Under the pieces are notes generated by a model, which was not told where the DNA came from, searched no databases, and saw only the letters and a list, made by a program, of their open reading frames with translations. A stretch of 64,000 nucleotides of DNA, taken from assembly GCF_003987045.1 (NCBI RefSeq), contig NZ_PIPZ01000001.1:992001-1056000 (forward strand), in the 5' to 3' direction. The position numbers and the translations under genes were made by a program. The DNA is from Pseudidiomarina marina. Lineage in GTDB: Bacteria; Pseudomonadota; Gammaproteobacteria; Enterobacterales; Alteromonadaceae. Below are positions 31,011 to 60,301 of this stretch, piece by piece (the stretch's first letter is position 1; the number at the start of each line of letters is the position of its first letter).

Positions 31011-31865
31011 TTATTTGTAAAGTGTACGAATCCAGCGCTCTTCAGTGATAAAGTTCCATGCCCAATCGGCCCATTGGTCACTCAAACCTTTTGCCACAGC
31101 TTCGTCTTCACTCAAGCCTTGTTCTTTCATCGTCATCACTTCTTCGCGTGTCGCTTCAATCATATGCACCAAACGCAACCAGTCACTACGCTTTGATAAG
31201 CCGCCATGACCAGGAATGATTTGGGTATCCCCATCAATATCTGCGATGACCGCACGAACGTTATCGATAAAGCCTTGAACGTTGCCGCCAGCATTCAAGT
31301 CAATGAACGGAAAGCGATCCACAAAAAACAAGTCACCGGCATGAATCACGTTGCTGCTAGGGAACCAAACCACGACATCACCATCAGTGTGACCGTTCGG
31401 ATAATGCTTCAATCTTACAGCCGTTGAACCAGTTTTTACTTCAAGTGCTTTATCAAACGTAATGGTCGGAAGGCCTTCGCGATCAAACTTCTCATTTGCG
31501 GCCAAACGCGTTTTCACATTTTCATGTGCCACGACTTTCACGCCTTGCTTTGCAAATGCAGCGTTGCCATCCGTGTGATCACCATGAAAGTGGGTATTCA
31601 CTAAAGTGCGAATGGGTTGCGAAGAGATTTCTGCAATTGCTGCTGAAATTTTATCAGCCAGGCCTTTATATTGCGCGTCAATCATAACCACGCCGTCATC
31701 ACCAACATAAACGCCGATATTGCCGCCCATGCCAGTTAGCATATAAACTCGTTCACTCAATTGCGTGGCTTTAATCTCCACGTCATCCATATTTGACTGT
31801 GCTTGAGTCATCGTTGTTGTAAACAATAAAACTGCACTCACTAATCCTAGTTTCAAACCACGCAT
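31011..31865 (-). CDS. Periplasmic MBL-fold metallohydrolase
   Basis: Metallo-beta-lactamase-fold enzyme of 284 residues with a signal peptide (MRGLKLGLVSAVLLFTTTMTQAQ). The zinc motif is intact: NTHFHGDHTDGNAAF (HxHxDH), then GHTDGDVVVWFP and IPGHGG. The order resembles periplasmic MBL-fold hydrolases of unknown substrate; the motif spacing alone does not prove beta-lactam hydrolysis. GGGAG sits before the ATG. It is 31 bases downstream of the M17 aminopeptidase in the same direction (minus strand), so they may share a transcript. Confidence 0.87.
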   Translation of the reverse strand: MRGLKLGLVSAVLLFTTTMTQAQSNMDDVEIKATQLSERVYMLTGMGGNIGVYVGDDGVVMIDAQYKGLADKISAAIAEISSQPIRTLVNTHFHGDHTDGNAAFAKQGVKVVAHENVKTRLAANEKFDREGLPTITFDKALEVKTGSTAVRLKHYPNGHTDGDVVVWFPSSNVIHAGDLFFVDRFPFIDLNAGGNVQGFIDNVRAVIADIDGDTQIIPGHGGLSKRSDWLRLVHMIEATREEVMTMKEQGLSEDEAVAKGLSDQWADWAWNFITEERWIRTLYK

Positions 31866-47319: not shown

Positions 47320-47348
47320 ATATGCATCACTTCATTGAGGATACCGTG

Positions 47349-47636
47349 ATGCAACACACCGTTACCCCCCATCCAGATAAATTAAAGCAGAATCTCAAGC
47401 AGCGACTTGCGCGCATCGAAGGGCAAGTACGCGGACTGCAACGAATGATTGAAAATGACACATACTGTGATGATGTTCTAAATCAAATTGCATCGGTGCA
47501 AGCAGCGCTGACTGGCGTCGCTCGTAAGTTACTCACGCAACATATGCATAGCTGTGTCAAACAGCGAATTCAATCGGGTGACGAGAGCGTATTGGACGAA
47601 CTAGATACAACTATTGAGCGTTTATTGAAGCGCTAA
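47349..47636 (+). CDS. csoR: CsoR-family copper-sensing repressor
   Basis: Helical DNA-binding repressor of the CsoR/RcnR family, 95 residues. The family block LKQRLARIEGQVRGLQRMIE is followed by the copper ligand set Cys40, His65 and Cys69 (spacing C-x24-H-x3-C), which equals the Cys-His-Cys site of copper CsoR and differs from the sites of FrmR and RcnR. The frame opens at 47322, which lies before the expected transcript start; GAGG eight bases before the ATG at 47349 marks the true start. It lies 10 bases before copA, under the operator at 47300-47316. Confidence 0.9.
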   Translation: MQHTVTPHPDKLKQNLKQRLARIEGQVRGLQRMIENDTYCDDVLNQIASVQAALTGVARKLLTQHMHSCVKQRIQSGDESVLDELDTTIERLLKR

Positions 47637-47646
47637 GGAGCTAACT

Positions 47647-49878
47647 ATGGCAACGCAACAGTATCAATTACAGCTGTCAGGAATGAGTTGCGCCGGATGC
47701 GCAAAAACAATTGAACGTGCACTTCAAGGTGTCGATGGTGTTAGCTCGGTAAACGTCAATTTTGCAACCGAAATTGCCGCCGTAGAGGCAAACAATGTTG
47801 CTGCTGCTAAATTAGTCGAGGCGGTGAAAGGTGCAGGTTACGACGCCAGTGTCATCGATCATGAGCAATCTGAGCCAGACGACTCGCGCGAGCGAGCGCA
47901 GCAAGTTCAGTTTTATAAATTTATTGCCGCGGCTATTCTTTCGGCGCCGTTGTTATACACCATGCTAGGCCATTTTAGTTGGACAGACTCTATTTATGTA
48001 CCGAATTGGTTAATGAATCCCTGGGTACAAATGGCATTAGCAACGCCCGTGCAATTTATTATCGGTTGGCAGTTTTATAAAGGAAGTTATACCGCGCTGC
48101 GCGGCGGTGCCGCCAATATGGACGTCCTCGTTGCACTCGGCACATCAGCCGCCTACTTTTACAGCGTATTTTTAGCCGCATTTGCGAGTGACCATGTCAT
48201 TCACGAAGGTCTTTATTTCGAAACCAGTGCCGTTCTTATCACGCTTATTGTATTAGGTAAGTGGTTTGAGGCTCGCGCCAAAGGGCGATCATCCGCAGCC
48301 ATCAAGCAGTTATTAAACCTGCAACCAAAACAAGCGTTGCGCGAACGTAACGACGGCGAAACCGAACAAGTTGCCGTGGCCGAACTAAAGGTGGGCGATG
48401 TCATTCACATCAAGCCTGGGCAACAAGTTCCGGCGGACAGTGAAGTCATGTCTGGCGACAGTGCGGTTGATGAGTCGATGTTGACGGGCGAAAGTGTTCC
48501 TGTTGATAAAAAACAAGGTGATTCATTAACTGGCGGCACCATTAATAAAAATGGCTTTATGAAAGCTAAAGTTAAGAAACTTGGCAAAGACTCTGCGCTA
48601 GCACAGATTATTAAAGTTGTTGAGCAAGCACAAACGTCAAAAGCCCCGATTCAGCGTTTAGCCGACCAAGTGTCCGCAATATTTGTTCCAGTGGTACTCG
48701 GTATTGCGGTTATTACTTTTTTCGTTTGGGCATTTTGGTATCAGCCCGGTGATTACGGATCGGCGCTGGAGGCAACAGTTGCCGTGCTTGTTATCGCGTG
48801 TCCTTGTGCGCTCGGGTTGGCAACACCAACGTCAATTATGGCGGGTTCGGGTCGTGCAGCCCAAATGGGCGTGTTGTTTAAACAAAGTGAAACCCTAGAA
48901 ATCACACACACGGTAACCACCGTGGTGCTAGATAAAACCGGGACAATCACCGAAGGCAAACCCAAACTAACTGATATTGAATTCAATACGGCCGAGCGAC
49001 AACTCAATGAGGGACAATTGAAGGCTGCTGTAAAAGCCCTTGAGCAACAATCAGAGCATCCACTCGCGCAGGCCGTTGTTGCGGGTATTTCTGACGATGC
49101 AAAAGCAATCGCTATCGAAAACTTCAAAGCACATGAAGGACGTGGTGTTTCAGCCACATTGAACACCGACAATAAGGCGTACCTGATGCATATCGGTACC
49201 ACTCGGCTAATGCAAGAAAATGACATTGACTGCAATGCTTGGCTCGAACGTAAAGAGGCGCTTGAGCAAGAAGGTAAAACCGTAATGCTGATTGGTTTTG
49301 AAAAGCAATTGGTAGGCCTTGTCGCTGTCGCCGATACGGTGAGGGAGTATTCGAAGGATGCAATTACCAACTTGAAGCAACGCGGACTCAAAGTCGTCAT
49401 GATTACGGGTGACAATCAACGCACTGCTGAGGCGATTGCGAAACAAGTTGGTATTGAGCATATATTTGCTGAAGTATTGCCGGAAAATAAAGCGGAGCAC
49501 ATTACAAAACTGCGTGATCAAGGCGAAATTGTGGCAATGGTTGGCGACGGCATTAACGATGCACCTGCTCTCGCCACGGCCCATGTCGGTATCGCCATGG
49601 GAACTGGCACCGATGTCGCTTTAGAAACCGCAAATATTGCGCTCATGCGAGCCGACTTACGAAGTCTCGTTGATGCATTGTATGTAAGCAATAAAACCGT
49701 TCGTAATATTCGACAAAACTTATTCTGGGCATTCGCGTATAACACGTTAGGTATTCCCGTGGCTGCCGCTGGATTATTGGCACCTTGGTTAGCCGGTGGC
49801 GCTATGGCATTGAGCTCGGTTTCAGTTGTGTTGAACGCACTGCGTTTACAAAGATTACCAACAAAGCGTCGAAGTTAG
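47647..49878 (+). CDS. copA: Copper-exporting P1B-type ATPase
   Basis: Inner-membrane Cu(I) efflux pump of 743 residues. One N-terminal heavy-metal domain GMSCAGCAKTIE (Cys15, Cys18) is present where E. coli CopA has two. Then come eight predicted membrane helices with the transport site CPC (Cys385, Cys387, in IACPCALGLATP), phosphorylation Asp429 in DKTGTITEGKP, SEHPLAQAVV and GDGINDAPALATAHVGIAMG. AAGGAG precedes the start. Cotranscribed with csoR. Confidence 0.97.
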   Translation: MATQQYQLQLSGMSCAGCAKTIERALQGVDGVSSVNVNFATEIAAVEANNVAAAKLVEAVKGAGYDASVIDHEQSEPDDSRERAQQVQFYKFIAAAILSAPLLYTMLGHFSWTDSIYVPNWLMNPWVQMALATPVQFIIGWQFYKGSYTALRGGAANMDVLVALGTSAAYFYSVFLAAFASDHVIHEGLYFETSAVLITLIVLGKWFEARAKGRSSAAIKQLLNLQPKQALRERNDGETEQVAVAELKVGDVIHIKPGQQVPADSEVMSGDSAVDESMLTGESVPVDKKQGDSLTGGTINKNGFMKAKVKKLGKDSALAQIIKVVEQAQTSKAPIQRLADQVSAIFVPVVLGIAVITFFVWAFWYQPGDYGSALEATVAVLVIACPCALGLATPTSIMAGSGRAAQMGVLFKQSETLEITHTVTTVVLDKTGTITEGKPKLTDIEFNTAERQLNEGQLKAAVKALEQQSEHPLAQAVVAGISDDAKAIAIENFKAHEGRGVSATLNTDNKAYLMHIGTTRLMQENDIDCNAWLERKEALEQEGKTVMLIGFEKQLVGLVAVADTVREYSKDAITNLKQRGLKVVMITGDNQRTAEAIAKQVGIEHIFAEVLPENKAEHITKLRDQGEIVAMVGDGINDAPALATAHVGIAMGTGTDVALETANIALMRADLRSLVDALYVSNKTVRNIRQNLFWAFAYNTLGIPVAAAGLLAPWLAGGAMALSSVSVVLNALRLQRLPTKRRS

Positions 49879-49940: not shown

Positions 49941-50918
49941 ATGATTGCGGTCAGTTTGGTCGTTGCAACAGCATTAAGCGTCACCTCTTTAGAGAGCAAG
50001 CCTGATGTGCACTGGATTGGTGTCAGTGCGCCGACAAATAATGTGGTGTGGCTAAGTGGCTCAAATGCGACGATTGCGCGTAGCACTGATGCCGGTGAGA
50101 CGTGGGAGTATTTTAATCCCGCCAACGAAACCTTGCAGTTTCGTGACATTGAAGCACTCGACGCAAATCATGCCTATGCATTAAGTATTGGCGATAATGG
50201 CGACTCACGCGTTTACTACACATCGAATGGTGGACGTAACTGGCAGCTGCGGTTTCGTGCTGGCTCCAATCAGTTTCTCAATTGTATCGCCATGGCTAGC
50301 AGTGGCGAAGCATGGGTTTATGGGGACAGTCTTGAAGGTCGTTGGGAAATGGTTCGGAGTACCGATGGCCGGAACTGGTTATCGGCAAGTAATGTCGTTG
50401 ATAGCGCACCACTTTCCGATGAAGGAGGATTAGCTGCTAGCGGTGGATGCGTGCGCTATAACAACAACGTGTGGGCAATAGGTACGGCCAATGGAAGCAA
50501 GGCACGACTATTATTAAAGCGCAATTTTGGTATTCGCTTTAAAGCCATTGATACCCCGCTTCCCGCAGGTCCGAGTGCTGGCATTGCGAGTGTGTGGCCA
50601 TTGTCTGAAAACGACGCCATTATCGCCGGTGGTGACCTCAATGATCCGTCCGCGGTACCGCGACTCATGCGTTATCAAAATGGCGAGTTTGCCGCTCTAC
50701 CAGAGCCGGATTTTGATGGCGCCTTATACAGTTTAACGGTGCGTCCGAATGGCGATATGTTAGTGAGTAATCCGAATGGCGCTGCATATCTTAACAGCGC
50801 CGATATGACATGGGAAAAACTGAGCGATGCCAACATTTGGAACAGCGCGTGTATTAATCAGCGCTGTTATTTAGTTGGTAAAGATGGCTTTGTTGCGCGT
50901 ATCAGCTTCGATGAGTAG
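49941..50918 (+). CDS. YCF48/BNR-type beta-propeller protein
   Basis: Protein of 325 residues with a weak N-terminal export signal (MIAVSLVVATALSVTSLESK). It has repeated propeller blades with the Asp-box-like motifs STDAGETWEYF, TSNGGRNWQLRF and STDGRNWLSA, as in YCF48 photosystem-assembly factors and bacterial 'photosystem II stability' relatives. There are Cys residues in pairs near the end (SACINQRCY). Function unknown; it follows copA by 62 bases in the same direction, so it may be part of copper response by read-through. Its last 48 bases overlap the convergent cysteine desulfurase fusion. Confidence 0.75.
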   Translation: MIAVSLVVATALSVTSLESKPDVHWIGVSAPTNNVVWLSGSNATIARSTDAGETWEYFNPANETLQFRDIEALDANHAYALSIGDNGDSRVYYTSNGGRNWQLRFRAGSNQFLNCIAMASSGEAWVYGDSLEGRWEMVRSTDGRNWLSASNVVDSAPLSDEGGLAASGGCVRYNNNVWAIGTANGSKARLLLKRNFGIRFKAIDTPLPAGPSAGIASVWPLSENDAIIAGGDLNDPSAVPRLMRYQNGEFAALPEPDFDGALYSLTVRPNGDMLVSNPNGAAYLNSADMTWEKLSDANIWNSACINQRCYLVGKDGFVARISFDE

Positions 50919-53018
50919 TGCGGTACCGCCCGACAAATGACTGACCTGTTCAAAACCGTGTCTAGCTAACACTTGCGCAGCCACTGCGCTGCGGTGTCCG
51001 GAACGGCACACACAGACAATTGGACGCTGATTATATTGCGCTCGATGACTATAAATAAACTGCGCTAATCGTGTGAGCGGCACGTTAATCACTTCGGCAT
51101 CAACCGATAATTTCCGAACTTGATGCTCTTGCTGTTCGCGCACGTCAACAACCAAGGTTTCAGGTTGCTCCAACCATTCTTGCTGCTGTTCAAGTGACAC
51201 ATCAATAAGTTGGCATGGCAAACAATCACCTGAAACTTCACAAAGTTTCTCGACCACACGAAACGCATCATCACGACGAGCAAGCAATAGTGTTTGCTCA
51301 TGTACAATCTTTGCAAGCTTTTTGACATCATGCTGTTCGCCAATAAATGCAAAATCGACATGAGGTGCGGCTACCTCGTTAGTGAGTGGTGAGCTCAGCA
51401 AAAACATCGGCTCTCGCGTTCCAACGCGATATAAACGTCTCGCGCCCACACGCAAGCACCCGAACACTTCAACTTGACACTCGACCGGCGCTTCACAGCC
51501 GCCAACCGCATCCAATGGCCAACCAACGGCATCACGTTGGGCACTACAACCACTTGCACAAAGAAGCTGAGCTAGCATCGCCGCGGGGCTGTCTGCCGCC
51601 TGTGCTTCGGTTGTCAATACAGCCTTCACCCGGTAGTTTTGGCACGCTACCAAACGTTCAATTCGTTCAGCCAGCTCAGGCACCGGATCGATCACCGCCA
51701 TCTCGCCAGCGGCTTTATCAATTAGCAAATAACAACAGTGACTATCAAAGCGAAGCTGAACAACCCCATCTAGGTTGCTATCAACATCTTCATTGGTGTC
51801 AGACACTAATAAACAAGATTGGCGTAAAGCCATCGCGGCATCACGAATGCGTTCGCACGCAGCATCAATAATTGCCGGTGACGTTGCGGGCCCGAATGAA
51901 AGACGAATGGCCGAGCTAGAACGCCACGATTCTAAGCCCATGGCATCCAGCACGAAGCTTCTGGTGACACCAGAACTACACGCCGAACCGGAACTGACGC
52001 GAATATTCGCCGCATCAAATACATCCATAATGTCTCGCGACGGAACGCCACGTACTGAAAAGTTCAAGGTTGTTGGCACTGAATCTGCAAGCTCATGATT
52101 CAAAACCAAGGTGGGAAACGCGCTACGCAACGCTTTCAATAATTTTTCTCGATATCCTTCGAGAACTGCGTGGCTCTGAAAAACTTGCTGCTCTTTATCT
52201 AACAACAACTCAAACAGCGCATGTAAAGCAGCAATGCCCGGTAGATTCTCGGTTCCAGAGCGCTGCCCCTGCTCTTGACCACCACCTATAATTAGTGGCG
52301 TAAAAGGCGCATTTTCACGCACATACATAAACCCAATCCCTTTAGGGCCATAAAGCTTGTGACCACTGAAAGGCGCATAATCAATTGTTGTCTCACTCAA
52401 TTGCAGCGATTGCTTTCCGAGAGCTTGAACGCAATCAACCATCCACGGGACAGTTGTATTTTCGGCTCGAATAACTTCTTCTAAGGCGCTTAAATCTTGC
52501 ATTACACCCGTTTCGTTATTCACGGCCATGGTACAAATCATGTGCGCGGCGCCCACATGCTCAGCAATAAATTGCAGGTCTAATTTACCGCGTTTATCTA
52601 CAGGGATAGGCTTTAATTCAGCATTAAGCTGTAGCAACTTATTCCAGTGCTCGAGCGCTTGCGGTACGGCCTTATGCTCGGTTGCCCCATAGAGTAACCA
52701 ACGTTTACCGCCCAAATTCGTGCTATTACGCGCCGCCGTTAACGCCGATAGCACCGCTGTCTGAATACCTTCGGTTGCACCGCTCGTAAAAAATAGGCGC
52801 CCGCGCGGTGCACCAATAACTTGGCGCCCAAGGCGACGCGTGTTATCGAGAATATATCGAGCCTGAAGGCCGGTGATATGACTACTAGAAGGGTTTCCAA
52901 ACACATGCTCCATCACATGTTCGACGGCTTGAGCTATCTGAGGTAACACCGGTGTTGTTGCGTTGCAATCAAGGTAAATTTCAGCCGTTTTCGGGCGAAT
53001 TTGTACCGGTGTAACCAT
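50871..53018 (-). CDS. Cysteine desulfurase - degenerate MBL-like domain - rhodanese fusion
   Basis: Protein of 715 residues in three parts. Residues 12-400 are a class V aminotransferase (IscS/NifS-like): ATEHKAV, PLP Lys221 in SGHKLYGPKGIGF, RSGTENLPGI and catalytic Cys347 in SSGSACSSG. Residues about 418-565 look like a metallo-beta-lactamase fold, starting CCYLLIDKAAGEMAVIDPV, but the zinc motif place reads LTTEAQAADS with no histidine. Residues about 600-708 are a rhodanese with Cys671 in VCVCRSGHRS; a CLPC pair (599, 602) lies just before it. AAGGAG precedes the start. It is 18 bases after nqrM, last in the nqr cluster, so a role in Na+-NQR Fe-S or persulfide supply is inferred. Domain 1 and 3 are certain, domain 2 is read from pattern only. 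Confidence 0.85.
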   Translation of the reverse strand: MVTPVQIRPKTAEIYLDCNATTPVLPQIAQAVEHVMEHVFGNPSSSHITGLQARYILDNTRRLGRQVIGAPRGRLFFTSGATEGIQTAVLSALTAARNSTNLGGKRWLLYGATEHKAVPQALEHWNKLLQLNAELKPIPVDKRGKLDLQFIAEHVGAAHMICTMAVNNETGVMQDLSALEEVIRAENTTVPWMVDCVQALGKQSLQLSETTIDYAPFSGHKLYGPKGIGFMYVRENAPFTPLIIGGGQEQGQRSGTENLPGIAALHALFELLLDKEQQVFQSHAVLEGYREKLLKALRSAFPTLVLNHELADSVPTTLNFSVRGVPSRDIMDVFDAANIRVSSGSACSSGVTRSFVLDAMGLESWRSSSAIRLSFGPATSPAIIDAACERIRDAAMALRQSCLLVSDTNEDVDSNLDGVVQLRFDSHCCYLLIDKAAGEMAVIDPVPELAERIERLVACQNYRVKAVLTTEAQAADSPAAMLAQLLCASGCSAQRDAVGWPLDAVGGCEAPVECQVEVFGCLRVGARRLYRVGTREPMFLLSSPLTNEVAAPHVDFAFIGEQHDVKKLAKIVHEQTLLLARRDDAFRVVEKLCEVSGDCLPCQLIDVSLEQQQEWLEQPETLVVDVREQQEHQVRKLSVDAEVINVPLTRLAQFIYSHRAQYNQRPIVCVCRSGHRSAVAAQVLARHGFEQVSHLSGGTALLIEADTRNKAIFTN

Positions 53019-53036
53019 CAGTGTAACTCCTTCAAC

Positions 53037-53267
53037 TTAATCGATTCGATTTTCCTGCCACTGCTTTTCTTTCGCAGCTCGAGCTTCTTCAGCCATGCGG
53101 GCTTTCTTATCATCGCACGGATCTTTGCAGTCGCAAGCCTTTTCCATACCTAATGACGAGATACCGCCGCAACTACCGGAAATAGATTTACGTTGGGCGA
53201 TGAAACCCACAGACATGGCTAATACCACCACCAACATGATGACGAATACAGCAATAAAAACGCCCAT
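53037..53267 (-). CDS. nqrM: Na+-NQR maturation protein NqrM
   Basis: Small membrane-anchored protein of 76 residues (DUF539) needed to assemble active Na+-NQR, thought to supply iron to the NqrDE cluster. One membrane helix (about 4-24) is followed by four conserved cysteines, Cys33, Cys45, Cys47 and Cys51 (GSCGGIS, ACDCKDPC), and a charged tail. A strong AGGAGGT precedes the ATG. It is between apbE and the cysteine desulfurase fusion, both tightly spaced. Confidence 0.95.
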   Translation of the reverse strand: MGVFIAVFVIMLVVVLAMSVGFIAQRKSISGSCGGISSLGMEKACDCKDPCDDKKARMAEEARAAKEKQWQENRID

Positions 53268-53281
53268 GTGGACCTCCTGAG

Positions 53282-54304
53282 CTACTGCTCAAATCGTTTG
53301 AATGCAGTACTAGTGTACTCTTTAAATTGATCGTTTTCACGGGTCACTAGCAACACCGCGAGACCTTTTTGGTTCGCAAACGCTAATGCTTGCTCAGCGC
53401 CCATTACCGTTAACGCTGTCGCATAAGCATCTGCATCCATACAGGTTTCGCTGATCACCGTTACCGAAACTAAATTGTGCTGAATAGGATACCCAGTACG
53501 CGGATCGATAATATGCGAATAGCGAACGCCGTCTTCCTCAAAGTAGTTACGATAATCACCTGACGTTGCAACGGCATTGTTACCTGGCTCAATAATGCGT
53601 TGTACCGCACGATCCAAAGAAACCGGCTGCTCAACCGCAATTCGCCATGGTTGTTCACCTGGCTTTGTGCCACGCATGCGCATCTCACCACCAATTTCTA
53701 CGAGGTAGTTCTTGATTTCCATCTGCTCCAGAAGCACCGCAACGCGATCAACACCATAGCCTTTCGCAATCGTGGACAAATCAACATACAAGTCAGGAAT
53801 CGCTTTAGTTAACTGATGGTTTTCAACGGTTAAATATTGATAACCAATTTGTTTGCGAATAGCTTGTAATTGCTCTTCCGACGGCACGCGCTCAGGGCGA
53901 CCTAGTGGGCCAAAACCCCATAAATTTACTAACGGCCCTACAGTAACATCGAGCAGCCCATTCGTTTCTGCACCAATCTCGAGTGCACGGCGAACAACCG
54001 TCTCTAACGAACGAGAAATAACTACCGGATCGGTGGTCTGACGCTGATTAAACAACGACAACTCTGAGTTCGGATCGTATGTCGACATTTGGCTGTTAAC
54101 TTGCTCTAGCACAGCGTCCACACGCTCTTTCACACGCTCCGGCGAGTGATTCGGATTCGCAGTTACATAGCGGATATGGTAGGTCGTACCCATGGTCTCA
54201 CCCGACACCGAAATTTGCTGTGGTGCAGGCGTGCATGAAACGAAAAAGGCCAGCCCTAACAGGGCTAGCCAAACTCGCAGAGTCGATGATTGATTCATCT
54301 TCAT
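53282..54304 (-). CDS. apbE: FAD:protein FMN transferase (ApbE)
   Basis: Periplasmic lipoprotein of 340 residues that attaches FMN to threonine of NqrB and NqrC. The lipobox is FVSC (Cys24). Conserved blocks: GTTYHIRY, VDLSTIAKGYGVDRV, YLVEIGGEMRMRG and YSHIIDPRTGYPIQ, with the metal-binding DADAYATAL near the end. It follows nqrF by 34 bases in the same transcription unit, which suits its role on the NqrB and NqrC targets upstream. Confidence 0.96.
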   Translation of the reverse strand: MKMNQSSTLRVWLALLGLAFFVSCTPAPQQISVSGETMGTTYHIRYVTANPNHSPERVKERVDAVLEQVNSQMSTYDPNSELSLFNQRQTTDPVVISRSLETVVRRALEIGAETNGLLDVTVGPLVNLWGFGPLGRPERVPSEEQLQAIRKQIGYQYLTVENHQLTKAIPDLYVDLSTIAKGYGVDRVAVLLEQMEIKNYLVEIGGEMRMRGTKPGEQPWRIAVEQPVSLDRAVQRIIEPGNNAVATSGDYRNYFEEDGVRYSHIIDPRTGYPIQHNLVSVTVISETCMDADAYATALTVMGAEQALAFANQKGLAVLLVTRENDQFKEYTSTAFKRFEQ

Positions 54305-54338: not shown

Positions 54339-55580
54339 TTAGCCACCGAAGTCATCTAACAAGATGTTTTCGTCTTCGACACCTAAGTCTTTCAACATTT
54401 TAATGACCGCAGCGTTCATCATCGGTGGTCCACACATGTAAAACTCACAATCTTCTGGCGCTTCATGGTCCTTCAGATAGTTTTCATACAACACATTGTG
54501 GATAAAGCCGGTGTAACCTTCCCAATTATCTTCTGGTTGCGGATCAGATAAAGCAACGTGCCATTCGAAGTTGTCGTTTTCACGCGCCAACATATCGAAA
54601 TCTTCAACATAGAACATTTCTTTCTTCGAACGTGCGCCGTACCAGAACGTCATCTTACGATCAGACTTCAAGCGACGTAATTGGTCGAAGATGTGTGAAC
54701 GCATTGGCGCCATACCAGCACCACCGCCAACAAACACCATTTCTGCTTTGGTATCTTTCGCGAAGAATTCACCAAATGGTCCAGAAATCGTCACTTTATC
54801 ACCTGGCTTCAGGCTAAAGATGTAAGACGACATTTTACCTGGTGGCAAGCTCATATCACGCGGTGGCGGCGTAGCGATACGCACGTTCAACATGATAATG
54901 CCTTTTTCATCTGGGTAGTTCGCCATTGAGTATGCACGAACAACTTCTTCATCAACTTTCGATTCGAGGTTAAAGAAGCCAAAGTGCTCCCAGTCGCCAC
55001 GGAATTTTTCTTCGATGTCGAAATCTTTAAACTTCACGTGATGCGGTGGGCATTCAATCTGAATGTAACCACCAGCACGGAATGGCACTTCTTCGCCTTC
55101 AGGTAGCTGAACAACAAATTCTTTGATGAAAGTTGCAACGTTATTGTTCGATTTAACCGTACAATCCCATTTACGAATACCGAATACTTCTTCTGGAAGT
55201 TCGATTTTCATATTTTGCTTCACGTTTACCTGACATGATAAACGGCAGCCTTCACGTGCTTCTTTGCGGTTAATGTGGTCACGCTCAGTTGGCAAAATAT
55301 CGCCGCCACCTTCTTTGATAACCACGCGGCACTGACCACATGAGCCACCGCCACCACACGCTGACGATACGAAAATACCAGCGTTAGCTAACGCACCTAG
55401 CAACTTCGTGCCAGGTTGTGTGGTAATTTTCTTGTCTTCGTCATCGTTAATTAAAATCTCGACATCACCCTGAGGGACCAATTTTGATTTGGCGAACATA
55501 ATCACCGCAACCAAAATCAATACAATCAAGGTAAACATGCCTACGCCGAGCGCTATTAGTGTCAAATCTTGCCCTTGCAT
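54339..55580 (-). CDS. nqrF: Na+-translocating NADH:quinone reductase subunit F
   Basis: Electron entry subunit of Na+-NQR, 413 residues. N-terminal membrane helix (about 7-29); 2Fe-2S ferredoxin domain with Cys75, Cys81, Cys84 and Cys116 ([13 protein letters not shown], then CRLSC); FAD domain with [13 protein letters not shown] domain with [12 protein letters not shown] and the C-terminal ILLDDFGG. Order and length match the family. It follows nqrE by 45 bases. Confidence 0.98.
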
Positions 55581-55625
55581 CGACTTGTACCTCTCGTTAA
55601 TCCGTTTCTATCGTTACCGGTGCTA

Positions 55626-56234
55626 TTACAGGGATACGCCAGAGAATGACATAAAGCCCAAACCAATCAGACCTACTGAAATAAAGGTAATACCTAGGCC
55701 GCGTAGGCCATCAGGTACATCAGCATATTTCAACTTCTCACGTACCGCTGCTAAAGCAACAATCGCAAGTGCCCAGCCAATTCCGCTACCGATACCGTAT
55801 ACTACGCTCTCACCAAAGGTGTAATCACGCTCAACCATGAACGAAACACCACCGAAAATTGCGCAGTTCACTGTAATCAATGGCAAGAAAATACCCAGCG
55901 CGTTATATAACGCTGGTACGTATTTATCCAATGCCATTTCTAGAATCTGTACCAGCGCTGCAATAACGCCGATAAAGGTCAAGAAACGCAAGAAACTTAA
56001 GTCGGCATCTGGGAAACCAGCCCAATCTAATGCACCAGGTGCCAAGATGTTGTGGTAAACCAAGTTGTTAACAGGTACTGAAATGCCTAGTACTACAATA
56101 ACAGCAACGCCCAAACCAAACGCAGTGGTAACTTTCTTAGATACTGCCAAGAAAGTACACATACCAAGGAAGAACGATAACGCTAAGTTCTCAACGAAAA
56201 TCGATTTAATAAATAAACTGATATAGGCTTCCAT
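55626..56234 (-). CDS. nqrE: Na+-translocating NADH:quinone reductase subunit E
   Basis: Integral membrane subunit of 202 residues with six helices in antiparallel arrangement to NqrD. The iron-cluster cysteines are Cys26 (FLGMCTF) and Cys124 (TVNCAIFGG), which pair with NqrD Cys29 and Cys112. It begins [17 protein letters not shown], the family start. Ten bases separate it from nqrD. Confidence 0.98.
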
Positions 56235-56244
56235 GGTCTGCTCC

Positions 56245-56877
56245 TTAATCCTTCGGCTCTACTTGCTCGGTGCGGAAGGTACGCAGTACCCAAATGAAGC
56301 CACCGATAATAAAGAACGCACTTGGTGGCAATACCAACAAGCCAATTGGTTGATACCAACCGCCTTCAGAAGCGAGCTGCATAATTTGATAACCGAACAA
56401 GCTACCAGAACCAAACAGTTCACGAATAAAGCCAACCGTTAGCAAGACCACTGAGTAGCCTAAACCGTTACCAATACCATCTAAGAATGACAGACCTGGC
56501 GTGCTTTTCATCGCATACGCTTCAGCACGGCCCATAACGATACAGTTGGTAATAATCAAACCAACGAATACCGAAAGTTCCTTCGCGATGCTATATGCAT
56601 AGGCTCGCAAAACTTGGTCAACCACAATTACCAAGCTGGCGATAATGGTCATTTGCACAATAATTCGCACGCTCGATGGAATATGGTTTCGAATAATCGA
56701 AATAAATAGGTTTGAAAATGCCGTCACGAAGGTTAGTGCGATACACATAACCAAGGTGTTTTCCATTTTCGATGTTACTGCCAACGCCGAGCAGATACCT
56801 AAGATTTGTAGGGCAATCGGGTTGTTGGCAAAAATCGGCCCAAATAGAACCTCTTTGACTTCTTTTGCACTGGCCAT
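56245..56877 (-). CDS. nqrD: Na+-translocating NADH:quinone reductase subunit D
   Basis: Integral membrane subunit of 210 residues, about six helices. Cys29 (ILGICSAL) and Cys112 ([11 protein letters not shown]) are at the same positions as the cluster-binding pair of Vibrio NqrD. Its ATG overlaps the nqrC stop by one base (TAATG). Confidence 0.98.
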
Positions 56878-57653
56878 TAGTTCAGCTCCCCTTTGCGAAT
56901 TTTATCAAACAGTGGGCCGTAAGCGTTTTCGCTGAACCAGAACTTCATGGTGTTTTCAACACCGTTACTAGTTAGCGTCGCACCAGAGAGTGCATCCACT
57001 TGATGGTCTTTGTCAGTTACATTTTTTGTAACTTCCAATGCCACACTGTCGTTTTCATAAATTTCTTTGCCTTCCCAGCTCGCTGTCCAGTTTGGATTCT
57101 GGATTTCGCCGCCAAGGCCCGGAGTTTCGGTGTGCTCGTAATAGTTGATGCCTTTCACGGTATTCATGTCGGGCGCAACAGCCATGAGGCCATACATAGT
57201 ACCCCACAAGCCATAACCACGAATGTAAACAACGACCGTTTCTAGCTCACCTTGTTTGTCGTTGATAAAGTAAACTTTAGCAACGTCTTCACGAGAACCA
57301 ATGCCAGCCAAATCGTTCGATTTTTCTAACTTGGTGCCTAACCCTGCCTTTTTAGCAGAAGCAATCGGGTCATATTCAGTAGGATTTTTACCATCGACTG
57401 AATCGACTTCCTCAAGCGTATTTAGGTTGAACAAACGTGTTTCAACACGCTCTTCAAATACTGCAATAACGTCTGTTTCAGGCGTTAATAAGCCAGCCGC
57501 ATCAAGCACGTTGCGTTGCATATCTAATGCAGCATTTTTCTGCTGCAGCGGTTTCAAACCAACCGCCGAGCCCGCCACAATAATCGCACACACTAAACAG
57601 AGCGCGATTACGACAAATAGCGTTTTGCCGAGTGATTCGTTTTTCTTAGCCAT
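56877..57653 (-). CDS. nqrC: Na+-translocating NADH:quinone reductase subunit C
   Basis: Membrane-anchored subunit of 258 residues with covalently bound FMN. One N-terminal helix (about 11-32) and an FMN-binding domain with the ApbE target [12 protein letters not shown] on Thr226. The open frame starts at 57713, but [15 protein letters not shown] at 57653 fits the family; it overlaps the nqrB stop by eight bases. Confidence 0.97.
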
Positions 57654-58845
57654 TGCGTGCCATTCTCCGTTTAATGTTTGATTGAACAACAAAGTGGTCA
57701 AACAGCGGGGCAAATACGTTGGCGAATAGAATCGCTAACATAATACCTTCTGGATACGCAGGGTTTACCACACGGATAAGTACGGTCATTGCACCAATCA
57801 AGAAGCCGTAAGCGAACTTACCTTTATTGGTAAACGACGCTGAAACTGGATCGGTCGCCATGAACATCATACCGAAAGCGAAACCACCAACGACCAAGTG
57901 CCAGTACCACGGCATAGCAAACATTGGGTTGGTATCGCTACCAAGCATGTTAAATAGGAATGACAATGCCACCATACCAACAAACACACCAGAAACGATG
58001 CGCCATGACGCGATGCGGAAGTAGATAAGCGCCAAACCACCAATAAGAATCATCAGGGTCGATACTTCACCCATTGAACCTTGAATGTTGCCTAAGAAAG
58101 CATCCCACCATAATGCGGTGTCAGTAATGTAGTCTGTGCTTGACGTTGCTTGACCGAGCAGTGTGGCGCCCGAGAAGCCGTCAACCGCGGTCCATACTTG
58201 CTCTCCCGAAATAGAAGCCGGGAACGCGAAGTACAAGAATGCGCGACCAGTCAGTGCCGGGTTTAAGAAGTTACGCCCAGTACCGCCGAATACCTCTTTA
58301 CCAATCACAACACCGAAGGTGATACCTAGAGCAACTTGCCACAATGGCATGGTTGCTGGCAGCGTCAATGCAAACAATACTGACGTTACGAAGAAGCCTT
58401 CATTGATTTCATGCTTACGAATTGAAGCAAATAAGACTTCCCAGAAACCACCGACAATAAAGGTTGTGGCGTAAACAGGAACGAAGAAGCAAGCGCCATA
58501 AAACAGCTTACCAGCCCAACCGGCTGTGCTTAAATCGCCACCTAGTGCAGTAAACAAGCCTACTTGCCAAATATCAGCGAGCTCGTAACCGTTTACCAAT
58601 GCCATAGCCGCTTGGTTACCGATGTTGTACATACCCCAGAACATTGCTGGGAAAGTCATCATCCACACCAAGATCATAATACGTTTCAAATCAACGCTGT
58701 CTTTTACGTGGGTAATGCCTTTGGTTACTTTACCTGGCGTATAGAAAATGGTTGCAGCCGCTTCGTATAAGGCATAAAACTTCTCGTACTTACCGCCTTT
58801 TTCAAAGTTTGGCTCAATATTCTCAAGAAAACTTTTCAAGCCCAT
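57646..58845 (-). CDS. nqrB: Na+-translocating NADH:quinone reductase subunit B
   Basis: Large membrane subunit of 399 residues that carries a covalent FMN and riboflavin and forms the Na+ channel with NqrDE. The ApbE motif GFSGATLLG places FMN on Thr228. The helices hold [18 protein letters not shown] and the C-terminal [13 protein letters not shown]. It begins [19 protein letters not shown] and lies two bases after the nqrA stop. Confidence 0.98.
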
Positions 58846-58847
58846 GA

Positions 58848-60188
58848 TCAGCCCTCTTTCTCAATTTCGGTCAACATGTTACGCAACACAGGACCGTACT
58901 CGTATTTGCCTGGGCAAACATAAGAACACAGCGCTAAATCCTCTTCATCCAACTCTAAACAGCCCAATTTTTGAGCTTGTTCAGTGTCACCCGAGAGCAA
59001 GTCACGTAGCAAAATCGTTGGCAAAATATCAAGCGGCATCACGCGCTCATAGTTGCCGATTGGAACCATCGAACGGTCAGAACCGTTAGTGGTAGTAGTC
59101 ATCGCAAACAATTTCTTCGGATTCAAATGGCCTAAATAAGCGCGAGTAACCGAGTGTTGATTAACACCAGGTTTGATCCAGCCAAAGAATTCTTTTTGAT
59201 CACCTTCAGCTAATACGCTGACTTGGTTATGGAAACGACCCAACCATTGGTGCGCATCGTCAACTTTATGGCCGTTTAGCACCGAACCAGAGACAATACG
59301 ATTGTTGCCTTGCGCCAATTCACCTTTGGTAAGCTCACGCAAGTTTGCACCTAAACGCGTGCGCAACAAACGCGGCTTTTTGGTGCACGGGCCACCCAAA
59401 GCAACAACGCGGTCAGTAAATAGTTCACCAGTAGTAAACAACTTACCGTAAGCAATGACGTCTTGATAACCGATATGCCAAACATGCTTCGCCATTGAAA
59501 CTGGCTGCAAAAAGTGAATATGGGTACCAACTAAACCCGCCGGATGAGGTCCTGCAAAGCTCTCTAGTTGTACTTTGGCATCGCCAACATCAACGTCAGC
59601 ATCAGCCGCCTTAACCACAAAAACTTTGCCTTGGGTCAAGTTACCAAGAACTTTCAAACCGTCAATAAATGCTTGTTTGTGTTCGTTGATAATAACGGCT
59701 GGGTCAGCGGCTAATGGATTGGTATCCATCGCGTTGACAAAAATTGCGGTAGGCTCTGCGTCAAGCTTTGGTGAACGGCTAAATGGACGAGTCCGCAATG
59801 CAACCCATTGACCTGAGTTGTTCAATTGCTCGACGACCTTTGCACGATCAAGGCTCGCTAATTCGTTACTGTCGTATTTGGCAAAGGTTTCTTGCTCATC
59901 GCCGTCAATTTCAATGACAACGGCTTGCAAAACTCGCTTTGCGCCACGCAGCACGTCTTTAACAACGCCCGCAGCAGGTGCAGTGAATTTAACCCCTGGG
60001 TTTTTCTTGTCTTCGAAAAGTACCTGGCCTTTTTTAACGCGGTCTTCAACCTTGACATGCATGGTTGGGCGCATTCCCACATACTCTTCACCCAGTACGG
60101 CAACGGTGGTGATGGCTTGGCCATCCTCGATAGTTTGCTGGGGCGCACCCGAAATCGGGATATCCAGCCCTTTCTTGATCGTAATCAT
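58848..60188 (-). CDS. nqrA: Na+-translocating NADH:quinone reductase subunit A
   Basis: Soluble cytoplasmic subunit of 446 residues that sits near the quinone site; first gene of the operon. It begins [14 protein letters not shown] and shows [30 protein letters not shown] (biotinyl-lipoyl-like fold), [20 protein letters not shown] and the C-terminal [25 protein letters not shown] at 60200 opens the frame, but the ATG at 60188 matches the family. The Shine-Dalgarno is weak. Confidence 0.97.
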
Positions 60189-60301
60189 ACGCGTTTGCAC
60201 TACTCGTTAGGGAAGATTAATCTCACTCCAGCGCAGGCATGTAAACGAAGGTTTAAATGCCTACACTGACCAAATTCTGTCCATTTTCACCTAGGGCGCG
60301 C

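Follow-up and report, generated by a model that had tools for sequence, protein, structure and literature searches.

A cysteine desulfurase-rhodanese fusion with an eroded persulfide dioxygenase domain at the end of the nqr cluster of Pseudidiomarina marina

The analysis of a 64,000-nucleotide (nt) stretch of the Pseudidiomarina marina genome (contig NZ_PIPZ01000001.1, positions 992,001 to 1,056,000; hereafter the window) centered on a gene encoding a three-domain fusion protein, which is the final gene of an nqrABCDEF-apbE-nqrM cluster lying entirely on one strand (Table 1). An earlier note, made from the sequence alone, had described an open reading frame (ORF) at the end of the nqr cluster and a product combining a cysteine desulfurase, a dead metallo-beta-lactamase (MBL) domain and a rhodanese. 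The ORF was confirmed on the minus strand, the plus-strand frame over the same interval being riddled with stop codons. The six genes upstream of apbE are presumably nqrA to nqrF, judging from their sequences and from the gene order conserved in relatives. The 18-nt gap with an AAGGAG between nqrM and the fusion gene was also as described, and a simple scan of this gap found no terminator-like site. The coupled expression deduced from this spacing does not extend to the linked genes at large: the gap spans 9-185 nt in 44 linked sequences, and translational coupling is hence not general.

Table 1. Features of the fusion gene and of the surrounding nqr locus (window coordinates)
Feature	Coordinates	Strand	Basis or remarks
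Three-domain fusion gene, 715 amino acids (aa)	50871..53018 (stop included)	-	ORF list, translation
Cys18, desulfurase domain (clade-specific)	52965..52967	-	39/39 linked, 0/77 unlinked
Cysteine desulfurase domain, NifS/IscS-like, residues 14-400	51819..52979	-	Pfam Aminotran_5; NifS best family
Lys221, pyridoxal phosphate (PLP) lysine	52356..52358	-	39/39 nqr-linked, 77/77 unlinked, 5/5 Aliidiomarina
Cys347, desulfurase catalytic Cys	51978..51980	-	39/39 linked, 77/77 unlinked, 5/5 Aliidiomarina
Eroded MBL domain, once a persulfide dioxygenase, residues ~417-600	51219..51770	-	Relatives' alignment and model
Metal-site residues 471-476, once HxHxDH and now E-A-Q-A-A-D	51591..51608	-	Alignment; HxHxDH letters now E471-x-Q473-x-A475
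Cys508, Cys514, Cys521 (clade-specific)	51456..51497	-	37, 34, 37 of 39 linked; 1, 0, 3 of 77 unlinked
Glu561 in place of iron-ligand Asp (GDT to GEQ)	51336..51338	-	Alignment
Rhodanese domain, residues 610-699	50922..51191	-	Pfam
Cys671, rhodanese catalytic Cys in CRSGHRS	51006..51008	-	39/39 linked, 76/77 unlinked (one gap), 5/5 Aliidiomarina
nqrM-fusion gap, 18 nt, contains AAGGAG	53019..53036	-	Sequence read
nqrM, 76 aa (upstream of fusion gene)	53037..53267	-	Pfam PF04400, 2.6e-20
apbE	53282..54304	-	Pfam PF02424
nqrF	54339..55580	-	ORF list
nqrE	55626..56234	-	ORF list
nqrD	56245..56877	-	ORF list
nqrC	56877..57713	-	ORF list
nqrB	57646..58845	-	ORF list
nqrA	58848..60200	-	ORF list; whole nqrA-F block 54339..60200
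YCF48/BNR beta-propeller-like convergent neighbour, 325 aa	49941..50918	+	Pfam matches below cut-off

Pfam searches with the fusion protein matched Aminotran_5 at residues 14-382 (3.4e-56) and Rhodanese at residues 610-699 (1.7e-10). The N-terminal domain presents the Aminotran_5 fold, the PLP lysine and the catalytic cysteine loop of the group I desulfurases NifS and IscS, from which it differs in remaining below every NCBIfam cut-off shown; its best match, NifS TIGR03402, scored 262.6 bits against an equivalog cut-off of 530.75. The catalytic residues named by the earlier note (Lys221, Cys347 and Cys671) were found at those positions and are retained together in all 44 linked copies. An N-terminal desulfurase and a C-terminal rhodanese, each with its catalytic cysteine, are also combined in one chain by the Pseudorhodoferax CD-Rhd protein (WP_056898193.1), a 54 kDa protein with two named domains; the two proteins differ in what lies between these domains. 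According to the part of its description that was covered (PMC8931425), which mentions no link to nqr, this two-domain protein is active from L-cysteine in vitro, making persulfide and relaying it, and by analogy the window protein probably works in the same way. In a literature search with subscription papers outside it, the portions of the sources covered described desulfurase-rhodanese and dioxygenase-rhodanese fusions, and neither a three-domain fusion nor an nqr-tied desulfurase.

No Pfam match was obtained between the two outer domains of the window protein, and the identification of the MBL domain rests on relatives and on a structure model. Among the relatives run (six), Lactamase_B exceeded the Pfam cut-off in L063, L068, L095 and L084 and fell below it in L109; with seven proteins run in all, it went undetected in L070 (Aliidiomarina) and in the nqr-linked L081. 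A profile of the MBL-rhodanese part of four intact copies matched BpPRF over nearly its full length (1e-29). A profile of 33 linked copies matched rhodaneses, with ETHE1 as its best MBL-only match at just E=0.21, and hhalign aligned the linked-copy profile with that of the intact relatives end to end; the rhodanese contributes to the score of this alignment (1.4e-42, probability 100). The structure prediction of the MBL segment suggested by the earlier note was run on residues 404-715 and returned an MBL fold (predicted local distance difference test, pLDDT, 84.6; predicted TM-score, pTM, 0.86; 83.7 and 0.79 for the full-length model), although the four intact relatives among the 37 rows of its alignment may bias the fold toward theirs. 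Foldseek placed BpPRF on top (2.3e-12), and ETHE1 was the best MBL protein without a rhodanese (6.9e-7, target-normalised TM 0.51).

The MBL-like segment is hence real, and the CstB/PRF-type reading of the earlier note can be sharpened: the domain is specifically of the persulfide dioxygenase (PDO) type. BpPRF (PDB 5VE3-5VE5) and CstB, the best fold and sequence match, share with the window protein the MBL-then-rhodanese order and the active rhodanese cysteine; the window protein differs in its added N-terminal desulfurase and in its missing 2-His-1-Asp triad. We take PDB 3R2U, a Staphylococcus aureus MBL entry, to be CstB. Since the relatives share all three domains, with a full MBL that matches BpPRF, sequence comparison indicates that the window gene descends from a desulfurase/persulfide-dioxygenase/rhodanese fusion of related marine gammaproteobacteria. 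Of 19 unlinked loci that were compared, two, both with intact fusions, adjoin a gene for a TauE/SafE sulfite exporter, a count obtained with most neighbour genes of the other 17 outside the family-library run; these neighbours are fitting for a sulfite-producing ancestor.

In persulfide dioxygenases, a single iron is held by two histidines and one aspartate, according to the parts covered of two descriptions (PMC12856154, PMC6060420). The triad was mapped to the first His of HxHxDH, the His of PGHT and the Asp of GDT, based on the BpPRF alignment and on residues T56-H57 and D130 of AcPDO, as given in the part of its description covered, and its presence was scored by alignment column count. 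The window protein does not have the triad of PDO and PRF/CstB proteins: it carries Glu471 and Glu561 at two of these places, its PGH loop is deleted, and the three iron ligands and four further counted metal-site positions have all been replaced or deleted. Judging from these residues, the fused dioxygenase is almost certainly dead, as the earlier note had supposed. The triad was absent from all 44 distinct nqrM-linked copies (39 from Idiomarina and Pseudidiomarina, 5 from Aliidiomarina) and whole in 74 of 77 unlinked copies, the exceptions being L135, L136 and L168. In 32 of these 74, the losses are confined to ligands of a second metal site, for which a mono-iron enzyme has no use. MBL damage confined to nqr neighbours was considered and rejected, given the three unlinked copies without a triad and the 32 of 77 missing second-site ligands. 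In Aliidiomarina, about 100 residues separate the outer domains and almost no MBL is left; protein length is mostly 741-808 aa in unlinked copies, 676-715 in the eroded clade and 594-613 in Aliidiomarina. The residue counts omit fragments with N runs (L029, L033 and L062; G001, the genome of L029/L033, was still counted for linkage) and duplicates of a species or genome across two collections (L034-L050, L059, L060, L067, L094, L095 and L103), among which the nqr-linked rows also lack the triad.

The nearest named relatives of the fusion belong to Pseudidiomarina, Idiomarina and Aliidiomarina, which we group as Idiomarinaceae and which were equated with genus groups g1, g52 and g35, respectively, by sequence identity and shared contigs. 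Within the window genus, the fusion was detected in 24 of 25 relatives besides the window genome. The survey of nqrM linkage proposed by the earlier note showed nqrM immediately followed by the fusion in all 40 fusion-bearing genomes from these groups (25, 10 and 5). Outside the family, the fusion was found in three of 24 members of the order; named carriers are Aliikangiella, Ferrimonas and one record bearing the title Marinobacter nauticus. A class-wide search of 369 genomes at 1e-70 matched only the genome of the window itself, the Aliikangiella fusion being found by another search. The fusion on the Marinobacter nauticus DP3N21-5 contig (L064) is 72% identical, from about residue 404, to that of Ferrimonas L063, and the record is possibly a mislabelled Ferrimonas.

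A tree built on the desulfurase domain groups the eroded copies together (100/98) and gives the Aliidiomarina copies a clade of their own (100/100), on a separate long branch that is not nested inside the eroded clade. The tree pairs Aliidiomarina with Ferrimonas (93/87), a pairing to which a long-branch warning attaches. A single clade of all linked copies was not rejected (approximately unbiased test, p-AU 0.09), and neither was a single clade of all MBL-damaged copies except L109 (p 0.088). Rooting on the genome's own IscS was dropped, its branch being 5 to 10 changes per column long. Two clades whose union is not rejected imply that the linkage arose once or twice.

Purifying selection continues to act on the eroded domain. 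The ratio of nonsynonymous to synonymous substitution rates (dN/dS) in the eroded part was 0.025 (four pairs) and 0.053 (nine pairs), compared to 0.039 and 0.040 in the desulfurase and to 0.163 and 0.176 in the MBL of two unlinked groups (four and three pairs; dS 1.8 and 1.0), for pairs that are few and not independent and that were kept at 0.15 < dS < 1.2 (upper limit 2.5 for two groups). Where the desulfurases of a pair are 70-85% identical, mean identity was 48.6% in the eroded domain versus 51.8-55.9% in the MBL domain of unlinked copies, with a slightly lower mean desulfurase identity in the eroded pairs (74.2 versus 75.5-80.8). The clade of the window also carries specific cysteines, at positions 18, 508, 514 and 521 (Table 1), to which can be added Cys429 (36/39 linked versus 10/77 unlinked) and Cys669 (39/39 versus 22/77).

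For the activity, transfer path and client of the fusion, we infer the following scheme from its domain families. The ancestral enzyme would have converted cysteine sulfur into persulfide, to be oxidised to sulfite or relayed by the rhodanese. In its Idiomarina, Pseudidiomarina and Aliidiomarina descendants, the gene lies immediately after nqrM and the dioxygenase has lost its iron site. The window protein would move sulfur from L-cysteine onto Cys347 and the persulfide on to Cys671 of the rhodanese, with no oxidation, while the eroded MBL, kept under selection, would act as a spacer or docking element, with new cysteines in the window's clade. It is very probable that the fusion is a working persulfide maker and relay, which is also the most cautious interpretation. 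The likeliest single client would be maturation of the Na+-translocating NADH:quinone oxidoreductase (Na+-NQR), with sulfur supplied to the [2Fe-2S] cluster of NqrD/E beside NqrM.

This choice of client draws on the cluster itself, located between NqrD and NqrE by cryo-EM (PMC9325719, part covered), which makes a sulfur donor chemically necessary. The NqrM literature covered, in part, assigns this protein a role in delivering iron or inserting the cluster (PMC6209661, PMC12174285), a review noting that [2Fe-2S] insertion seems to require it (PMC12174285), and the parts covered state no sulfur route to the membrane-buried NqrD/E cluster. The fusion shares cluster and strand with the maturation genes nqrM and apbE. 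A supply of sulfur to NqrD/E by the fusion is thus plausible, and a desulfurase within the nqr cluster provides a directly testable candidate donor. We nonetheless regard Na+-NQR as its main client only tentatively, and the whole chain, from persulfide maker and relay through to Na+-NQR maturation, is likewise possible rather than probable. The passage of sulfur through the MBL and its use in building the NqrDE site, as proposed by the earlier note, are hypothetical. A fuller version, in which a sulfur-detoxifying fusion became the dedicated donor for the NqrD/E cluster, moved behind nqrM, shed the iron with which it would oxidise persulfide and, in the window's clade, gained cysteines across its three domains that relay persulfide internally together with the cysteines of NqrM, appears fairly unlikely.

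Several observations weigh against this client. Unlike NqrM, the fusion is missing from most nqr-bearing relatives sampled: it was matched at 1e-55 in 95 of 246 family genomes, compared to 244 of 246 for NqrM, and nearly all the 151 genomes without it have NqrM. Of these 95 genomes, 70 have their one NqrM match away from the fusion, at about 40 kb on the same contig in the nearest case (G118) and farther off or on another contig in the rest, so that the linkage does not extend to these family copies; broken assemblies leave slight doubt on such calls, as in G127, where the fusion is alone on a 3.2-kb contig. G007 (L092), from the window genus, is a natural deletion: the fusion is cleanly absent, with a YCF48-like gene directly after nqrM, and the stretch fetched keeps apbE, nqrM, the whole of nqrB-F and a partial nqrA. 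The fusion is also missing from four of nine Aliidiomarina, three of which were read. The association of linkage with iron loss counts as one or two events rather than as 44, and the three unlinked copies without a triad lost it away from nqr. The genes neighbouring the fusion (nqr, YCF48-like, SDR and lipase-like) are likewise syntenic, none of the six clade cysteines occurs in the five linked Aliidiomarina copies, and the genome has an iscRSUA-hscBA-type operon, its genes named from their sequences, with a separate IscS 33% identical to the desulfurase of the window protein. Given the absences in G007, Aliidiomarina and the family at large, and the one or two origins of the linkage, Na+-NQR service as a general need is disfavoured.

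These same observations leave room for a general sulfur-trafficking enzyme, supplying persulfide or H2S or serving tRNA or cofactor thiolation, that stands behind nqrM by inherited synteny and lost its dioxygenase as redundant, an account to which we give slightly less than an even chance. It is favoured by the dispensability of the fusion for possession of nqr, by the shared synteny of its neighbours and by a stand-alone type II persulfide dioxygenase in the same genome (288 aa, 4e-103 to the P. aeruginosa enzyme, PDB 9g8t), encoded near a TauE/SafE exporter (L190:4883-9082), so that the cell could keep this activity after the fused dioxygenase was lost. The same locus holds what we take to be a membrane protein and a two-component pair. 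Stand-alone genes (E up to 1e-40) were detected in all 14 Idiomarinaceae genomes tested, but their restriction to this group was rejected, as one is also present in 17 of the 24 genomes with unlinked fusions that were tested. Against this account, 15 of the 17 keep the fusion triad, G283 lost its triad with no stand-alone enzyme, and the linked gene is never apart from nqrM in the 40 genomes.

The remaining alternatives concern the MBL domain. Judging by its residues, it could have taken on another function in the clade of the window, as a cysteine-based iron or persulfide site formed by Cys508, Cys514 and Cys521 with Cys18, Cys429 and Cys669. The distribution of these cysteines and the low dN/dS agree with such a role, which we still consider unlikely, as the Cys508-521 run is missing from L027 and L028, its middle cysteine from L081, and all of these cysteines from linked Aliidiomarina. 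It is very unlikely that the MBL is functionless and decaying toward deletion, with Aliidiomarina as the end point. The stepwise fall in length would suit this course, but conservation of the eroded domain comes close to that of its unlinked counterparts, its dN/dS is low and Aliidiomarina falls outside the eroded clade. A metal enzyme with altered ligands, for which the retained fold in the model could speak, is extremely unlikely with all seven counted metal positions replaced or deleted. Even without the Na+-NQR link, the iron-bearing, iron-less and near-domain-less versions of this fusion family provide a natural experiment on the choice between oxidising and donating persulfide sulfur in one chain.

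Within about 8 kb of four named unlinked loci, no nqr genes were found. In four g51/g54 genomes (G118, G149, G078 and G121), the fusion shares the strand of nqrA and precedes it by some 33-43 kb instead of following nqrM. Genome shrinkage bringing the gene to nqrM was therefore rejected, as deletion alone is insufficient from a position upstream of nqrA. Four unlinked fusions (L109, L110, L111 and L116) lie beside an ECF sigma factor and ChrR-type cupin anti-sigma pair, assigned by Pfam on L109 only. Among Aliidiomarina without the fusion, L181 and L182 have a YCF48-like gene directly after nqrM, and in L180 (G107) two genes, presumably of the TnpB-like transposon type and porin-like, intervene between the two (L180:2424-5399). 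The apbE at nqr in Aliidiomarina is only about 28% identical to that of the window (L101-L103, L180), and no apbE turned up in the sequence next to nqr in L104, L105, L181 and L182.

The tail of the fusion gene overlaps the convergent YCF48-like ORF by 48 nt. This gene was matched in ten of 36 genomes tested: a few kb from nqrM in five of five Idiomarinaceae, within about 0.5 kb of an unlinked fusion in four of four g38 genomes, and once more in G148. Its partner may be the fusion and not nqr. The window also has a CsoR-like repressor and a P-ATPase, presumably of the copper type (47322-49878, plus strand), which some relatives carry between their YCF48-like and SDR genes and others lack. A second MBL protein is encoded in the window (31011-31865, minus strand, 284 aa), with an intact HFHGDH motif and an N-terminus that looks exported.

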